Virus record (IMG/VR): IMGVR_UViG_3300037117_000228
Coordinates: 1-37,736 of that record
Direction: 5' to 3' (one strand)
Length of the DNA: 37,736 bases
Source: a virus
The notes beneath the pieces were generated by a model. It was not told the DNA's origin and did not search any database. It saw nothing but the letters and a program-made list of their open reading frames with translations. Position numbers and translations under genes: made by a program. The stretch's first letter is position 1. Each line of letters begins with the position of its first letter. Positions 7,284-37,736 of this stretch are shown here, in pieces.

Positions 7284-7736
7284 TTACTTAGCGCCCGCTC
7301 CTTCAGGTGGAGAAAATCCTTCAGATGCCCGCAGCTCTTCGTAACCGCTCAGCGTTCCTTTTCGATGCTTAGGTACTCTGAATCCCCAACTTGCTACTAA
7401 TGCGTCCGCTAGTCGCTCGCGCTCCGTCAAATCGCCTGATACGGGCGCGCTATCCCCTCGAAACACATGCGCAAGTTCGTGCATCACAACGTAATTCACA
7501 TAGCTTTGGCTCTCTTCCTCCAAGCACGCATCCAAGTAAATCAGTACGCCCCTATTAGCAGGAGCCGGTAGCACAAGCCCGTGCGATCCGGCAGTCGGCG
7601 CGTGAACCGTAATATTCCGCTCATTGAGGATTGCCAACACGTCTTGCGGCAGTTCTAAAGCTTTTGCAAATGCTTTGTGAGTCTTCGAGCGGAATCGCGA
7701 GTCAATGTAAGGCCATCGCAGCCAAGGCTCTTTCAC
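7284..7736 (-). CDS. HExxH zinc-peptidase-like protein
   Basis: 150 aa. The start is GTG at 7736, overlapping the previous stop as GTGA. The motif VVMHELAHVFRGD (His86, Glu87, His90) followed by ERLADALVASWGF (from about 107) is the zinc-site pattern of ImmA/IrrE- and SprT-type metallopeptidases, whose third ligand is in the E-x-x-A-D helix. In phages and mobile elements such proteins often cleave a repressor, so a role against the XRE regulator (21466..21819) is possible but unproven. It lacks a DNA-binding domain of its own. Confidence 0.75.
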   Translation of the reverse strand: MKEPWLRWPYIDSRFRSKTHKAFAKALELPQDVLAILNERNITVHAPTAGSHGLVLPAPANRGVLIYLDACLEEESQSYVNYVVMHELAHVFRGDSAPVSGDLTERERLADALVASWGFRVPKHRKGTLSGYEELRASEGFSPPEGAGAK

Positions 7737-8226: not shown

Positions 8227-8747
8227 TGCCCCTCCTTCGTCTTTAATGACTCCGCGACTGCGCAACCCTTCTCCGTCACAGTGAATAACCATCTATTGGA
8301 AATGAGACCTTTAGCAGCGAGCCGCTTTTTAGCAGCCGAAATAGCGAGTACCGCACAGCGGTATTTCTTTCGCCAACGAAGCCATCGCTGCTCGGAGTCA
8401 CATATTCTCCCCCAGCGATCTCGGGTTTTCTCAAATCGCTCAATGCCATAAAACTCCCGAAGGATTGTCCGCAGATGGGGTAAAACGAAACTTGTGTACC
8501 GCACATATTCTGAAGGCGTGATTAATCCGTGACGAACGGCCATCGCTAACTCAGGTGCGCCGACTCGTTGCTTTTCGTAGAAGTGAACAAGTAAGTAGGA
8601 TTGCAGCAATGTGAGTCTGATTGAACAAAGTGCTGAATCGTGCCCTACGGATACTACAACCCGCCTGCCTCGCGGTCTGATTGAACAAAGTGCTGAATCA
8701 GCCGCCGTGCTAAGAGTTCTCTTTACATGGTTGAACGGTTCCGTCAT
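8223..8747 (-). CDS. Unknown protein with an internal repeat
   Basis: 174 aa, coupled to the AlkB-like gene by ATGA at 8747..8744. The C-terminal 60 residues are basic and may form a winged-helix-like unit (AAKKRLAAKGLISNRWLFTVTEKG), suggesting DNA binding. The N-terminus contains DSALCSIR twice. At the DNA level this is an exact 25-bp direct repeat (8615..8639 and 8675..8699) exactly 60 bp apart, so in frame. That is unusual for an otherwise unique gene and may reflect a recent duplication. Confidence 0.68.
   Translation of the reverse strand: MTEPFNHVKRTLSTAADSALCSIRPRGRRVVVSVGHDSALCSIRLTLLQSYLLVHFYEKQRVGAPELAMAVRHGLITPSEYVRYTSFVLPHLRTILREFYGIERFEKTRDRWGRICDSEQRWLRWRKKYRCAVLAISAAKKRLAAKGLISNRWLFTVTEKGCAVAESLKTKEGQ
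8615..8699. repeat. 25-bp direct repeat, 60 bp apart
   Basis: The same 25 bases (starting GTCTGATTGAACAAAG) occur at 8615..8639 and 8675..8699. The distance is a multiple of three and keeps the reading frame. The 35 bp between them are not repeated. Confidence 0.85.
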
Positions 8748-9541
8748 ATAACCTCCTGCATTTCTAAACGTTTTGCACGCCCTGCAATCTGCGCCGCTTC
8801 GTATTCCGCTTCCCGCTCTTTAAGAATCTCCCGCGCTTCGGATGTCGTCTTTGCATTCTTGATAAATGTCTTCGTTAAAATAAGTGGGATGTAGCGGAAG
8901 ATTACAGAGAACTTCATACCGCACGGAACGGGGCTGCGCTTCATAGAGTGGTACATCTTGTACTGTTCTTGGGGAAAGAATGTTAGCAGTGATCCCGACG
9001 TGAGTGGGACGCGAGCAAACTTATGAAAGATCGGCATCGCATAAGTCAACGTGAACTCGCGCGTAGCACCGACAGAGATTTGAAAGATGTGTCCGGGGTT
9101 ACTATCCTTATGGGAAAACACGTGGCTGTTACCGTCGGGATGCAAATTGATCTGGATAGAGTTAAGCGTGCAGTCATACTTCTCCTCAAGACGAGTTTGC
9201 AAGATGGCTAAAAACGGCGGAGCATCGCCCGACGATGCGACGCGATACATCTGGGGCACGCAATCGTTATAGGCTTGCCGAGGACCGTACTGTGTTGTCA
9301 GATGGCAGGCTTCATCCGTGCACGAGCCCGTCTCGAACTTGAAGTGAGGCAGCCGTTTTAGATTGTCGAATAAAACTTGCGCTTCCTTCACGCCGAGAAA
9401 ATGGGGGATGAGTTCGAACTTAGGAGCCGGAGGCAATCCCTTTTTCATCTCATAGTCGAGTTTCACAAACTCGTCCTTTGACAAAAACTTTTTGAGATGA
9501 GCGTAACTATGGGGCGGCTGGATTGGTCTTCGTTTTTTCAT
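8744..9541 (-). CDS. AlkB-like 2-oxoglutarate/Fe(II) dioxygenase
   Basis: 265 aa. The double-stranded beta-helix core lies at about 125-220. NSIQINLHPDGN leads to the metal motif HKD (His144, Asp146), and the distal ligand is YHSM (His198). Then come Lys210 and Arg216 in MKFSVIFRY, at the place of the AlkB R-x5-R 2-oxoglutarate motif, with the first Arg replaced by Lys. AlkB enzymes remove alkyl groups from DNA or RNA bases; phage versions may repair the genome or oxidise bases for protection. The N-terminal 70 residues and the basic helical tail are extra. It is coupled by ATGA to both neighbours in the early operon. Confidence 0.8.
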   Translation of the reverse strand: MKKRRPIQPPHSYAHLKKFLSKDEFVKLDYEMKKGLPPAPKFELIPHFLGVKEAQVLFDNLKRLPHFKFETGSCTDEACHLTTQYGPRQAYNDCVPQMYRVASSGDAPPFLAILQTRLEEKYDCTLNSIQINLHPDGNSHVFSHKDSNPGHIFQISVGATREFTLTYAMPIFHKFARVPLTSGSLLTFFPQEQYKMYHSMKRSPVPCGMKFSVIFRYIPLILTKTFIKNAKTTSEAREILKEREAEYEAAQIAGRAKRLEMQEVI

Positions 9542-16808: not shown

Positions 16809-17596
16809 ATGACAAAGAACCGAAGAAACGATGGAGGATTCTCCCTTTAACTCGATGGGGGAGACTTGAAGATAAGAACAGTAACGCATCGAGTTACTGA
16901 TCGTGGTTATAAACGAATCGTGACCACGGGAATGATAAGAGACGCGGGCGATAATTCTTATCATCACAGCCATTAACAAAATGGTGGCTGTTAAACCTGC
17001 TCTGATTGACTCGGAAACCCGGAAAGGGCAACGAGGCGCAAGCCGCAAGGCAGCGTGAACGACTGAGCGAGCGGGCACCGAAAGGTGATGCACCAGTCTG
17101 CTCTTTCGGGTCGAACCGAAAGAGGCCAGCGGAACCGAAACGACTGGCCCGTTGCCACAAGGCGACGTAACAAAGAGGCGCAGTACCGAGGTTGTTGGCG
17201 GCAAGGAAGGCGAGTCAGGAATCTGCGGCGGCGGCGACGGCGCGGTCTTTTGCTACGGCACAGGCCACGTATCAGGGTCGGTTCTCGAATGACTTTGCGT
17301 CTACTCCGGCCCAACTGATGGCACCCGGAGCAACGTGTGACGCGAGCCAGACCTTTCCCGCACCAGCCGGAGGGCCAGCCGCAACGTGGTCAGTGAATGG
17401 CTACACGTATCTGTTCACACCCGGCACGCCTGATGCCGCGCCCGTAGGGGCATGCACAAGTCCGGGCACGGGTACTTTCACGTTCACGGCAACGCCAACG
17501 GACGCAACGCTGGATGGCTACTTAGTTGATGACAGTTTCACTGTCCGACATGGGACGGGAGCGGCTACCGTCACTTCCAATCCTATCGGCCAATAG
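16809..17596 (+). pseudogene. Type IV pilin-like gene, split by an intron and damaged
   Basis: The ATG at 16809 after GGAGG starts MTKNRRNDGGFSL, a class III (prepilin) leader with the Gly|Phe processing site, then meets TAA. From about 17182 another frame reads VPRLLAARKASQESAAAAT, then RSFATAQATYQ, and on to 17596, the classic body of a pilin or pseudopilin. Joining 16846 to 17184, as the intron model predicts, gives GFSLTEVV, the exact prepilin consensus including Glu5. However, the hydrophobic stretch of about 16 residues that should follow is absent, and the body is then in another frame. So the pilin is either decayed by a small deletion or expressed in a way I cannot see. Confidence 0.65.
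16847..17183 (+). ncRNA. Group I self-splicing intron (337 nt)
   Basis: P1 pairs CTCCCTT (16841..16847) with the guide GGGGGAG (16857..16863), with U.G at the splice site. P3 is CCTGCTC/GAGCGGG (16996..17002, 17069..17075). P4 is CTCG/CGAG (17010, 17032), with GGAAACC and GGGCAA junctions around P5. P6a is GCC-GCAA-GGC (17042..17051). P7 is GACTG/CAGTC (17061, 17094) and P8 is CACC-GAAA-GGTG (17076..17087). P9 is a perfect 9-bp hairpin (17101..17124), and P9.1 and P9.2 follow. The predicted final G is 17183. P10 pairs exon 2 (17184..17190) with 16851..16857 at 6 of 7 positions. There is no endonuclease gene inside. The secondary structure was read by hand. Confidence 0.82.
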
Positions 17597-17651: not shown

Positions 17652-17837
17652 ATGAAACGAACTTTCAGCGACCAAACCGTGATGGATTTCGTTACCGCAT
17701 GGGTTGTAGTACTGGCACTGGTTGTACTGGGCGCGATGGCTTACTTGACAGGAACGTGGCACCCAGTGTGGAAAGAATCAGTTCAGGAATTTCGGGCGGC
17801 AGCACAAGGCCATGGAGGACCGCATGAAGAGAAATAA
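17652..17837 (+). CDS. Single-span membrane protein
   Basis: 61 aa, ATG at 17652. A short N-terminus (MKRTFSDQTVMDFVT) leads to one membrane helix (AWVVVLALVVLGAMAYLTG, about 16-34), then a polar periplasmic or cytoplasmic tail. It overlaps the second pilin gene by 14 nt. It could be a minor pilus-assembly component by context. No family is recognised. Confidence 0.6.
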   Translation: MKRTFSDQTVMDFVTAWVVVLALVVLGAMAYLTGTWHPVWKESVQEFRAAAQGHGGPHEEK

Positions 17838-18252
17838 AGAAGCGGGATTTATCGTCCTTTTAGAAATGCTTGTAGCTGTGGGGGTGCTTCTGGTCTTACT
17901 GGCGATTGCTACACCGAGCGCACTTCAAATCCAAAATTCGCAAAATGCCCAGACTGCCAAGACCCAAGTCTTCATTGTGCGAAATGCTGAAGCTGCACAA
18001 GCCGTCTGCATCGCAAACGCACAAACAACATGCACGGCATTGACATATCTGATTCCGCAGCCGGGTCCCGTCACGACCGCGCAGTTTAATTTTGTGATGG
18101 TGGTGTCTGGGAGCACTTGGTCTTATTCGGCGGCACCGATTTCAAACATCAAAGCGCCTCAAAGTTTCTATGCGAGTTCTGCAGACCCTTACGTTCACTG
18201 TTCGTTTGTCTGGGGCGTTCCAGCTACGGCTGCATCTGCGGTGTGCCCATGA
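17824..18252 (+). CDS. Type IV pilin-like protein
   Basis: 142 aa from the ATG at 17824, which has GGAGG 6 nt upstream; an in-frame ATG at 17812 lacks one. MKRNKEAG|FIVLLEMLVAVGVLLVLLAIA is a prepilin leader with the Gly-Phe cleavage site, Glu5 and an intact hydrophobic helix, followed by a polar helix (QIQNSQNAQTAKTQ). The C-terminal domain carries several cysteines (CIANAQTTC, HCSFVWG and a final Cys-Pro), suggesting a disulfide loop. Host prepilin peptidase would process it. It could be a minor pilin that modifies or blocks the host pilus. It is coupled to the next gene by ATGA. Confidence 0.8.
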   Translation: MKRNKEAGFIVLLEMLVAVGVLLVLLAIATPSALQIQNSQNAQTAKTQVFIVRNAEAAQAVCIANAQTTCTALTYLIPQPGPVTTAQFNFVMVVSGSTWSYSAAPISNIKAPQSFYASSADPYVHCSFVWGVPATAASAVCP

Positions 18253-23725: not shown

Positions 23726-24285
23726 GCCGCTTGCTCTCTAGGGCAGTGCTTTTCAACGATTCCACGAATCACAGCTCCACTGACACGTGTTCTTGATACG
23801 AGCATATCCGCAAGTTCGATAAGCGCCGCGCCGTTCTCTTCAATGATTCTGAGGGCAACACGCTCAGCGTTTCGGACGATCCGTGCCATGTCTTCCGGGC
23901 AAACATCGGGGAATAGTTCCTTCAGTTGCGCCTTATCGCGATCTAAGGATGGGCGAACCTCACTAAACACCAATCGTTCGCCTAATCCGCCAGCAACAAT
24001 TGCGGTAGCTAAACTTCGTTTATCTGCACTAACCGGTACCGAGAATAGAGTGCACCCGTTCTGTACGCCGTCTTCACGGATTACGCGCTCAAGGCTGACG
24101 TAATCAACGCTGAGGCCAACTACCGCGCCTACGATTGCATGTGCTGCTTCGTGCGCAGCATCGGCGCGGCGGTCGTAGGGTGGAATCAAATTTTCTATTT
24201 CCCATTCATCTAGCCATTTCTGTTGTTCCTGTACGCTAAGTTGTGAACACCAATACAACAACCCACCTGCGATAAGAAGGCTCAT
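23722..24285 (-). CDS. M41 (FtsH)-peptidase-like protein, membrane-anchored
   Basis: 187 aa. The start at 24285 overlaps the GIY-YIG stop (ATGA). Residues 1-12 are a short hydrophobic anchor (MSLLIAGGLLYW). ADAAHEAAHAIVGAVVGLSVDYVSLE (His45, Glu46, His49) and AIVAGGLGERLVF, then DRDKAQLK, match the zinc peptidase domain of FtsH, with a possible third ligand at Asp115/117. The AAA domain is missing, so it cannot unfold substrates by itself. It may act on small or already unfolded proteins. Confidence 0.75.
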   Translation of the reverse strand: MSLLIAGGLLYWCSQLSVQEQQKWLDEWEIENLIPPYDRRADAAHEAAHAIVGAVVGLSVDYVSLERVIREDGVQNGCTLFSVPVSADKRSLATAIVAGGLGERLVFSEVRPSLDRDKAQLKELFPDVCPEDMARIVRNAERVALRIIEENGAALIELADMLVSRTRVSGAVIRGIVEKHCPREQAA

Positions 24286-25115
24286 GCAGCCGCCTGAAGT
24301 TCTATACAAAACTTACATACGGGGTTAGGATGTGCTTTGCGAATACTGCCGTCTTTGAGAATCCTGTCAGAAACGTGGCACCTGATATGCGAACCTTTAC
24401 GACCGTTTGCCGCTCTCTGTTCGTGCGATAGCGCAAAAAGTCCGGTCTTGTTCTTAGCATCCTTAAGTCTTTGGATACGACCCAATTCTTGAAGGCGACC
24501 GCTCTCTGCGTTTTTACGACCTTGGTTGCGACCGGCATCTCTCTGCGCCGCTTTAGTTTTCGGGAGATTTCGTATACGGGCGAGCTGCCCGCTTTCTACG
24601 TTTTTGCGACCTTGAATGGGGCCGCGAAGGCGACCACCTTTTGCACGGCTTTCTGCCGTAGTGATACGGGCGAGTTGTCCGCTCTCAACAGCAACACGAC
24701 CGCTGACGCGGCCATTGATACGACCATTGATACGGCCATTGATGCGCTGTGCCGCCTTCGTCTGCGGCAAGTTTCGTATACGGGCGAGCTGCCCACTCTG
24801 AACACAGATGCGACCTAATTTTACATAATCCGCCGAGCCTGGAAACGTCAGATTGTAGCCCTCTTCGTAACCGCACCACGTATGAAACCGAAACATCCAA
24901 ATGGTTTCGAGTTCGTTCAGCTCAAGCCGACTTTGAAGCTCGACAACTTCACGGATGGGTTGCGGCAACTCGACGCCCGGAAAGTCTCGGCGGAAGCGTC
25001 GCCCAAATGAAGATCGGCCCGACCTATGTTCTGCGTCACGCTTTGCGCCCTGCCCTACGTAAATAAAGCGCAGCGGCTTCGTCGGGTGCGGATAACGGTA
25101 AAGAACGTCTGTCAT
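24282..25115 (-). CDS. GIY-YIG homing-type endonuclease
   Basis: 277 aa. Residues 1-95 carry a GIY-YIG nuclease: YRYPHPTKPLRFIYVGQGA, catalytic Arg in KRDAEHRSG/RRFRR and Glu in LELNELETIWMFRF. Residues 105-220 are tandem units (SGQLARIRN, GRINGR, ESGQLARI, GRKN), a repeat-type DNA-binding region seen in phage homing nucleases. The C-terminus ends GRKGSHIRCHV, then NPVCKFCIE, the H-x-x-R-x-H-V/C-x-x-C signature shared with 25193..25570 and 36438..36617. It is probably a selfish endonuclease. The intron in the pilin gene lacks its own endonuclease, so a link is conceivable but speculative. Confidence 0.82.
   Translation of the reverse strand: MTDVLYRYPHPTKPLRFIYVGQGAKRDAEHRSGRSSFGRRFRRDFPGVELPQPIREVVELQSRLELNELETIWMFRFHTWCGYEEGYNLTFPGSADYVKLGRICVQSGQLARIRNLPQTKAAQRINGRINGRINGRVSGRVAVESGQLARITTAESRAKGGRLRGPIQGRKNVESGQLARIRNLPKTKAAQRDAGRNQGRKNAESGRLQELGRIQRLKDAKNKTGLFALSHEQRAANGRKGSHIRCHVSDRILKDGSIRKAHPNPVCKFCIELQAAA
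24480..24830 (-). repeat. Tandem SGQLARI coding repeats in the GIY-YIG gene
   Basis: Four units beginning with (V/A)(E/Q)SG(Q/R)L and about 28-38 codons long lie in tandem; the third resembles the first most closely. Inside the first, GRINGR is itself repeated three times. They probably arose by duplication and define DNA-contacting modules. Confidence 0.7.
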
Positions 25116-37281: not shown

Positions 37282-37736
37282 TTACTTACCTGCCAAAATC
37301 CTATTAATTTCGTCCCGATAGGCCGGACCGTTCTTCTGCAAAGCTAATTTCAACGAGCCGTTTCGAGCCATCTCAATAACTTCCTTGCGGGTAAAATCAA
37401 GATGCATCGCGGGCTCAGGAAGCCGAGGCAATCGAACCTGTCCGCGAGGGGATACCGTGCTAGTCTTCCGCTCGTAATTCGGCGTTGAGCTGTTGGTAAG
37501 TTTGTCGCCTACCTGTCCGATATGATCGTGACGAAGATCAGCGGATGGCCTAACCATATTTCGCACTTGCACGTGCCCGGCAGTTGCATCCGTAGCCAAT
37601 GAGTCCTTAACCGCATAGAACGCAATCACGACATCATCGAAGTTTGTTTTGGATAGACCGGCAGCCTCCATGTACGCGTAAAGAACGGACCAGTTCGCCT
37701 GACAGGCGTAGAACACCGCGCCGCGAGTGACGCCTT
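37282..37736 (-). CDS. Unknown late-region protein, C-terminal part (same gene as 1..275)
   Basis: This is the remainder of the 200-aa gene whose start is at 275. Within the window it is open at its 5' end; bases 37610..37736 duplicate 1..127. The sequence includes a short hydrophobic/aromatic stretch (VFYACQANWSVLYAYMEAAG), then a polar linker, then a helical C-terminus ending ILAGK. No domain is recognised. The next gene downstream on the minus strand is 36645..37235. Confidence 0.85.
   Translation of the reverse strand, partial: GVTRGAVFYACQANWSVLYAYMEAAGLSKTNFDDVVIAFYAVKDSLATDATAGHVQVRNMVRPSADLRHDHIGQVGDKLTNSSTPNYERKTSTVSPRGQVRLPRLPEPAMHLDFTRKEVIEMARNGSLKLALQKNGPAYRDEINRILAGK
37610..37736. 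repeat. Terminal direct repeat, copy 2 (circular overlap)
   Basis: Exact second copy of bases 1..127. It should be removed when the element is treated as a circle. Confidence 0.93.

Follow-up and report, generated by a model that had tools for sequence, protein, structure and literature searches.

The type IV prepilin gene of a temperate phage, carried by the window (the whole analysed stretch of 37,736 nucleotides), is interrupted by three group I-type insertions of 40, 39 and 205 nt, of which only the longest has a complete ribozyme. Judged by its sequence, the 205-nt insertion is a group I intron. The other two, referred to as mini-introns, have guide pairings and a terminal G with no catalytic core, and are probably non-autonomous introns that the adjacent group I ribozyme cuts out. 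At least 20 similar mini-introns were found just upstream of full group I introns in other phages. The three insertions, their guide pairings, the restored protein and this recurrence beside full introns can all be read from the sequences themselves.

The pilin gene and its full group I intron

The window carries a 127-bp direct terminal repeat (positions 1-127 recur at 37610-37736), which indicates that the genome is probably complete, circular or terminally redundant, with about 37.6 kb. Given this repeat and the integrase, terminase and primase encoded on the same DNA, the host of the interrupted pilin gene is a temperate phage with a near-complete genome.

Removing the three introns joins four exons (Table 1) into GFSLIELLIVVAIILIITAIAVPRLL, an intact prepilin, and the predicted spliced product is MTKNRRNDGGFSLIELLIVVAIILIITAIAVPRLLAARKASQES..., with 167 aa. 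An open prepilin frame is obtained only by removing all three insertions, and the resulting product matches Pfam N_methyl at 3.4e-8. It presents a leader ending in G, the cleavage site GG followed by FSLIELLIVVAIILIITAIAVPRLL, the F-x-x-x-E pattern and a hydrophobic helix; PilA from the PDB (4.6e-9) and Geobacter pilins align with it from Phe11, i.e., from the mature N-terminus. Mini-intron 1 interrupts the prepilin cleavage motif, the 205-nt intron lies further down the hydrophobic helix, and mini-intron 2 is placed between them. The helix codons that are otherwise missing are located between the upstream hairpins, with IELLIVV at 16888-16908 and AIILIITA from 16948. An intron-free homologue of the pilin, which the earlier note had proposed as a check, was not found in viral contigs or phages, nor did the pilin body as query return any relatives among them.

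A second prepilin-like gene (AGFIVLLEMLVAVGVLLVLLAIATPSALQ), intron-free and unrecognised by Pfam, lies directly downstream at 17812-18249; a pair of pilin genes is unusual for a temperate phage. Two minus-strand genes were also noted in the window. The protein encoded at 24282-25115 contains repeated GRINGRINGR motifs, for which Pfam gives nothing, and by eye resembles a free-standing homing endonuclease with DNA-binding repeats. The one encoded at 8744-9541 has a weak, below cut-off match to the 2OG-Fe(II) oxygenases (AlkB-like; PF13532, 3.7e-6).

Table 1. Exons, introns and pairings of the pilin gene (window positions; U.G pairs of the mini-introns are given by the last digits of their positions).
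Feature	Position	Strand	Description
Exon 1	16809-16846	+	start codon, leader MTKNRRNDGG, F-S, CT of Leu
Mini-intron 1, 40 nt	16847-16886	+	P1, P10, final G; no catalytic core
P1 of mini-intron 1	16841-16846 x 16858-16863		six pairs, 5' exon ending CUCCCU, U46.G58
P10 of mini-intron 1	16848-16857 x 16887-16896		ten pairs, from first base of exon 2
Exon 2, 22 nt	16887-16908	+	finishes Leu, then I-E-L-L-I-V-V including Glu5
Mini-intron 2, 39 nt	16909-16947	+	P1, P10, final G; no catalytic core
P1 of mini-intron 2	16902-16908 x 16922-16928		six pairs, 5' exon ending CGUGGUU, U908.G922
P10 of mini-intron 2	16917-16921 x 16948-16952		five pairs (one G.U), from first base of exon 3
Exon 3, 26 nt	16948-16973	+	A-I-I-L-I-I-T-A plus AT of Ile
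Full group I intron, 205 nt	16974-17178	+	covariance model core, P1, family 3' end
P1 of full intron	16966-16973 x 16984-16991		ACAGCCAT before the splice site, TAACAAAATGGTGGCTGT after it
P3	16996-17002 x 17069-17075	+	
P4	17010-17013 x 17032-17035	+	
P5	17018-17020 x 17026-17028	+	
P6	17036-17039 x 17053-17056	+	
P7	17061-17065 x 17094-17098	+	
P8	17076-17079 x 17084-17087	+	
Exon 4	17179-17596	+	remaining pilin, AVPRLLAARKASQES... through stop

A covariance model (R1) was built from 47 aligned relatives, with the window excluded. It finds a single core in the window, at 16994-17104 (110 bits, E 1.4e-23), comprising P3-P4-P5-P6-P7-P8 with the P3/P7 pseudoknot. The earlier note was thus right that a real group I core is present, as it was about a U.G-ended P1 at 16841-16863. 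Among the 47 relatives, strong covariation is seen in all six core helices, pseudoknot included, and 97.3% of the alignment cells are paired, versus 38-49% when the alignment is slid; none of 500 shuffles was as good.

In the relatives, P1 lies directly 5' of the TAAA..CTCTGATTGACT core, and the 3' end consists of GTAACA plus about 5-6 nt, the last being G. The U.G P1, the terminal G and this family 3' end are obeyed by the 103 relatives with a protein-defined length. Given that the relatives' P1 immediately precedes the core, and that its counterpart in the window spans 16966-16991, the limits of the full intron are those listed in Table 1. These limits provide the U.G pair (U16973.G16984) and the terminal G17178, preceded by GTAACA (17167-17172) with 6 nt more to the final G. 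The P10 of this intron is weak, with two pairs. An alternative in-frame 3' site at G17175 would add one Gly; 17178 is preferred on account of the family ends and the pilin spacing.

The earlier note had also proposed an Rfam group I search. Neither RF00028 nor Rfam in general gave a match in the window even at E<=10, with both gathering and relaxed thresholds tried. Given that the Rfam model assigns the RT-PCR-proven Baka intron 28.6 bits, under its 50-bit cut-off, this silence is no evidence against the window intron.

With blastn, the core was also located in phage MW202674.1, where it splits a P22 coat protein gene precisely in two; an intron-free coat gene, about equally close to the query (97% identity), is present in MW202520.1. 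A further blastn match is in a Rhodanobacter plasmid, where the downstream CDS resembles ribonucleotide reductase by eye. A pattern for the P7/P8 region matches viral contigs in at least 120 places. Matches of a strict P4/P5 pattern in L004 and L005 were rejected as chance coding matches. In Roseobacter phage CRP-118 (L130, 2493-2894), an intron of the same family separates two segments that both carry a ribonucleotide reductase annotation, and this cultured marine phage is a possible laboratory system. Loci L023, L073, L089, L125, L029 and L008 each have two to four full family introns crowded in short virion-gene stretches, with some very short exons between them.

Mini-introns in the window and in other phages

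The mini-introns, with 32-55 nt in all, do not contain the P3-P8 core, and they do present a P1 with U.G, a P10 and a terminal G. Since the defining core is absent, they do not belong to the group I introns, yet they resemble group I substrates. In the window, the score of mini-intron 1 was matched by none of 20000 shuffles of the insert, and that of mini-intron 2 by 4 of 20000. The mini-introns were also inspected for a P9.0 partner and for a conserved motif in the tail, and neither was found.

Further mini-introns were delimited with homologous proteins as rulers, by applying tblastn across 406 loci and retaining insertions of 24-80 nt with at least two homologs each. The boundary rule (5' exon ending in U, U.G P1, P10, terminal G) holds at 14 of the 15 protein-defined insertion sites, and in none of the 14 rule-obeying insertions is the length a multiple of three. 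The exception is L094, where a 53-nt protein-defined insertion near 7542 has a strong hairpin (CGCCCTCTACA/TGTAGGGGGCG) and departs from the rule. The mini-intron lengths are 41 nt in L074, L053 and L052, 38 in L100, 35 in L017, 34 in L033, 47 and 32 in L400, 47 in L298, 55 in L042/L012, 40 in L303, 37 in L031 and 52 in L356, where the boundary was placed by eye and found again in a later scan. The P1 of L033 and that of L074 have an internal mismatch.

Intron-free counterparts exist for several of these sites: the L053 gap fits intron-free L108, the L017 gap fits L016, L031 is uninterrupted at the L052 site, and L052 is uninterrupted at the L031 site. Further cases, in which the frame is restored or an intron-free homolog is matched, are a second site in L031 and those in L011, L073, L096, L072, L026, L397 and L312. 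The loci covered were full-intron carriers and 160 intron-free homologs, a choice in which mini-introns far from group I introns are possibly under-sampled. When P22 coat and another capsid family were searched for by best hits, all homologs obtained were intron-free, and these served as controls. No cultured phage carrying mini-introns was found, and the open-access literature, to which the search was confined, yielded no account of group I introns that lack a core.

Proposed removal of the mini-introns and alternative explanations

We infer that the insertions are removed as RNA by group I chemistry, the neighbouring ribozyme being the catalyst for the mini-introns. Each mini-intron would consist of a bipartite internal guide sequence followed by a short tail whose last base is G. 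In P1, which has its U.G at the splice site, the 3' half of the guide would pair with the last bases of the 5' exon; in P10, its 5' half would pair with the first bases of the 3' exon. The core transcribed just downstream would dock the P1 of each mini-intron; guanosine would attack 3' of the U, and the 5' exon released in this step would then attack 3' of the terminal G, which P10 keeps in place. The 205-nt intron would remove itself and its core would remove the mini-introns, yielding a standard type IV prepilin mRNA. P10 averages 5.4 pairs in mini-introns versus 2.4 in the 103 full introns (p 4e-8) and 0.65 with shuffled exons, in a comparison where mini-intron boundaries were picked at fixed length by best pairing. 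A mini-intron has no P9 region, which normally places the 3' splice site, and a stronger P10 would be expected if it depends on that pairing instead.

The same chemistry might be provided in trans, by an excised full intron, by a ribozyme at another locus or by a protein-assisted factor. The guides are complete, any compatible core could serve, and engineered ribozymes do act in trans (PMC4094466). Such a catalyst is nevertheless unlikely, given where the mini-introns are found: every verified one is followed by 20-115 nt of exon and then a full group I intron, and no mini gap occurs in the 160 intron-free homolog loci. Some of the following full introns (L053, L400, L298) have an intronic reading frame resembling a LAGLIDADG endonuclease by eye, and the divergent full introns after L053, L400 (first site), L298, L303 and L312 were called by eye from P1 and sequence. 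A scan for P1/P10 pairing only gave 13 matches in the 24.8 kb upstream of cores versus 54 in 2.10 Mb elsewhere, i.e., 0.52 versus 0.026 per kb, a 20-fold enrichment. In an enlarged set, 12 matches fell 100-200 nt upstream and none at 200-1000 nt. Several scan matches were discarded: L065 is a false positive with an uninterrupted ORF, L127 and L368 are coding or unconvincing, and L084, L113 and L396 are the full introns' own P1.

Less probable still is that the mini-inserts stay in the mRNA and are bypassed by the ribosome as in T4 gene 60, aided by the exon-bridging hairpin. Their size (32-55 nt) and hairpins are like those of the 50-nt gene 60 gap, and several inserts have stop codons near the 5' edge. 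Yet the boundaries obey group I rules (U.G, terminal G, P1 and P10) that bypassing would not require, all mini-inserts adjoin a group I ribozyme, and take-off and landing codons are unmatched by eye (CTT versus CGC in mini-intron 1, CCT versus TTG before TGG in L052).

The earlier note had read 16847-17183 as one 337-nt group I intron joining 16846 to 17184, a reading that has a U.G P1 and a genuine core downstream in its favour and that is now very improbable. Like the cores of the relatives, the core in the window is immediately preceded by a P1 of its own; three separate insertions had been merged. A single intron also leaves IELLIVV and AIILIITA without explanation. The alternative that the 337 nt combine two collapsed introns, an exon between them having been lost, was abandoned once the missing transmembrane codons were recognised between the hairpins. 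Splicing at G17183 shifts the frame past GFSLTEVV, and the product (GFSLTEVVGGKEG...) ends after 48 codons, with a stop at codon 49 and no Pfam match; the TEVV of the motif thought to be restored is a wrong-frame coincidence, the pilin body being in another frame. The proposed P10 of six of seven pairs with ACCGAGG is surpassed by the same guide's ten of ten pairs with CATCGAGTTA at 16887, in exon 2. RNA pairing and protein restoration had been presented as independent lines agreeing on the splice sites, which is wrong for a junction that is out of frame and deletes the needed hydrophobic helix. Of the proposed group I-type splicing inside a phage prepilin motif, the interruption after GFSL stands, and the interrupter turns out to be the core-less 40-nt mini-intron. 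The two extra introns and the pilin's missing transmembrane segment were absent from that reading.

Decayed introns in a dead gene, with mini-introns as remnants no longer removed, would account for their resemblance to group I introns that have lost the core but are hardly credible, given that the exons are in perfect coding register, that P1 and P10 are kept with compensatory changes (in P10 at the same site, CTCCT/AGGAG in L033 versus CACCT/AGGTG in L074, and ACUGG in L053 versus ACCGG in L303), and that many affected genes are essential virion genes, e.g., coat protein.

Significance and comparison with known systems

Beyond the pilin gene, full introns probably act as spliceozymes for P1/P10-only introns of 32-55 nt, several per gene, and the mini-introns may spread by reverse splicing. 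If this is true, mini-introns would rank among the smallest known introns and be the first ribozyme-free introns of group I type from nature. The mini-intron would live off the neighbouring ribozyme, a case of intron parasitism. In addition, one catalyst would serve many introns, an arrangement like that suggested for how the spliceosome arose, in this case based on group I chemistry and open to experiment in a short transcript. The broken-looking capsid and pilin genes of environmental phages would then be explained. Full introns and mini-introns alike are missed by gene callers and Rfam, and the P1/P10 rule is a simple means to correct such gene annotations.

Group III introns of the Euglena chloroplast are very short, degenerate and presumed to depend on a catalyst elsewhere. 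The mini-introns share this shortness and presumed reliance on an outside catalyst, although group III introns are derived from group II, with a different chemistry and without a P1/P10 guide. Bypass elements (T4 gene 60 and the yeast mitochondrial byps) likewise interrupt genes with short inserts, 27-55 nt long and containing hairpins, yet they need matching take-off and landing codons, whereas mini-intron edges are set by U.G, P10 and terminal G.

Group I introns with RT-PCR-proven splicing are known in virion genes of mycobacteriophages, namely the tail gene of Baka and the capsid gene of LittleE (PMC3706429). They share with the window's full intron the U-ended 5' exon, the final G and the virion gene location, and the Baka 3' end, GTAACAAACCG, is similar as well. 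Unlike the arrangement described here, those introns are single and complete, and core-less neighbours are undescribed there (PMC3706429). Group I ribozymes have been engineered to cut segments out in trans by means of P1, P9.0 and P10 (PMC4094466). Such trans-excision ribozymes, or "spliceozymes", resemble the proposed mechanism in that a group I core takes out a short segment distinct from itself, identified through P1 and P10 (or P9.2) (PMC4094466). However, spliceozymes are man-made and carry the guide on the ribozyme, whereas here the guide is inside a natural mini-intron and the putative helper is in the next intron.
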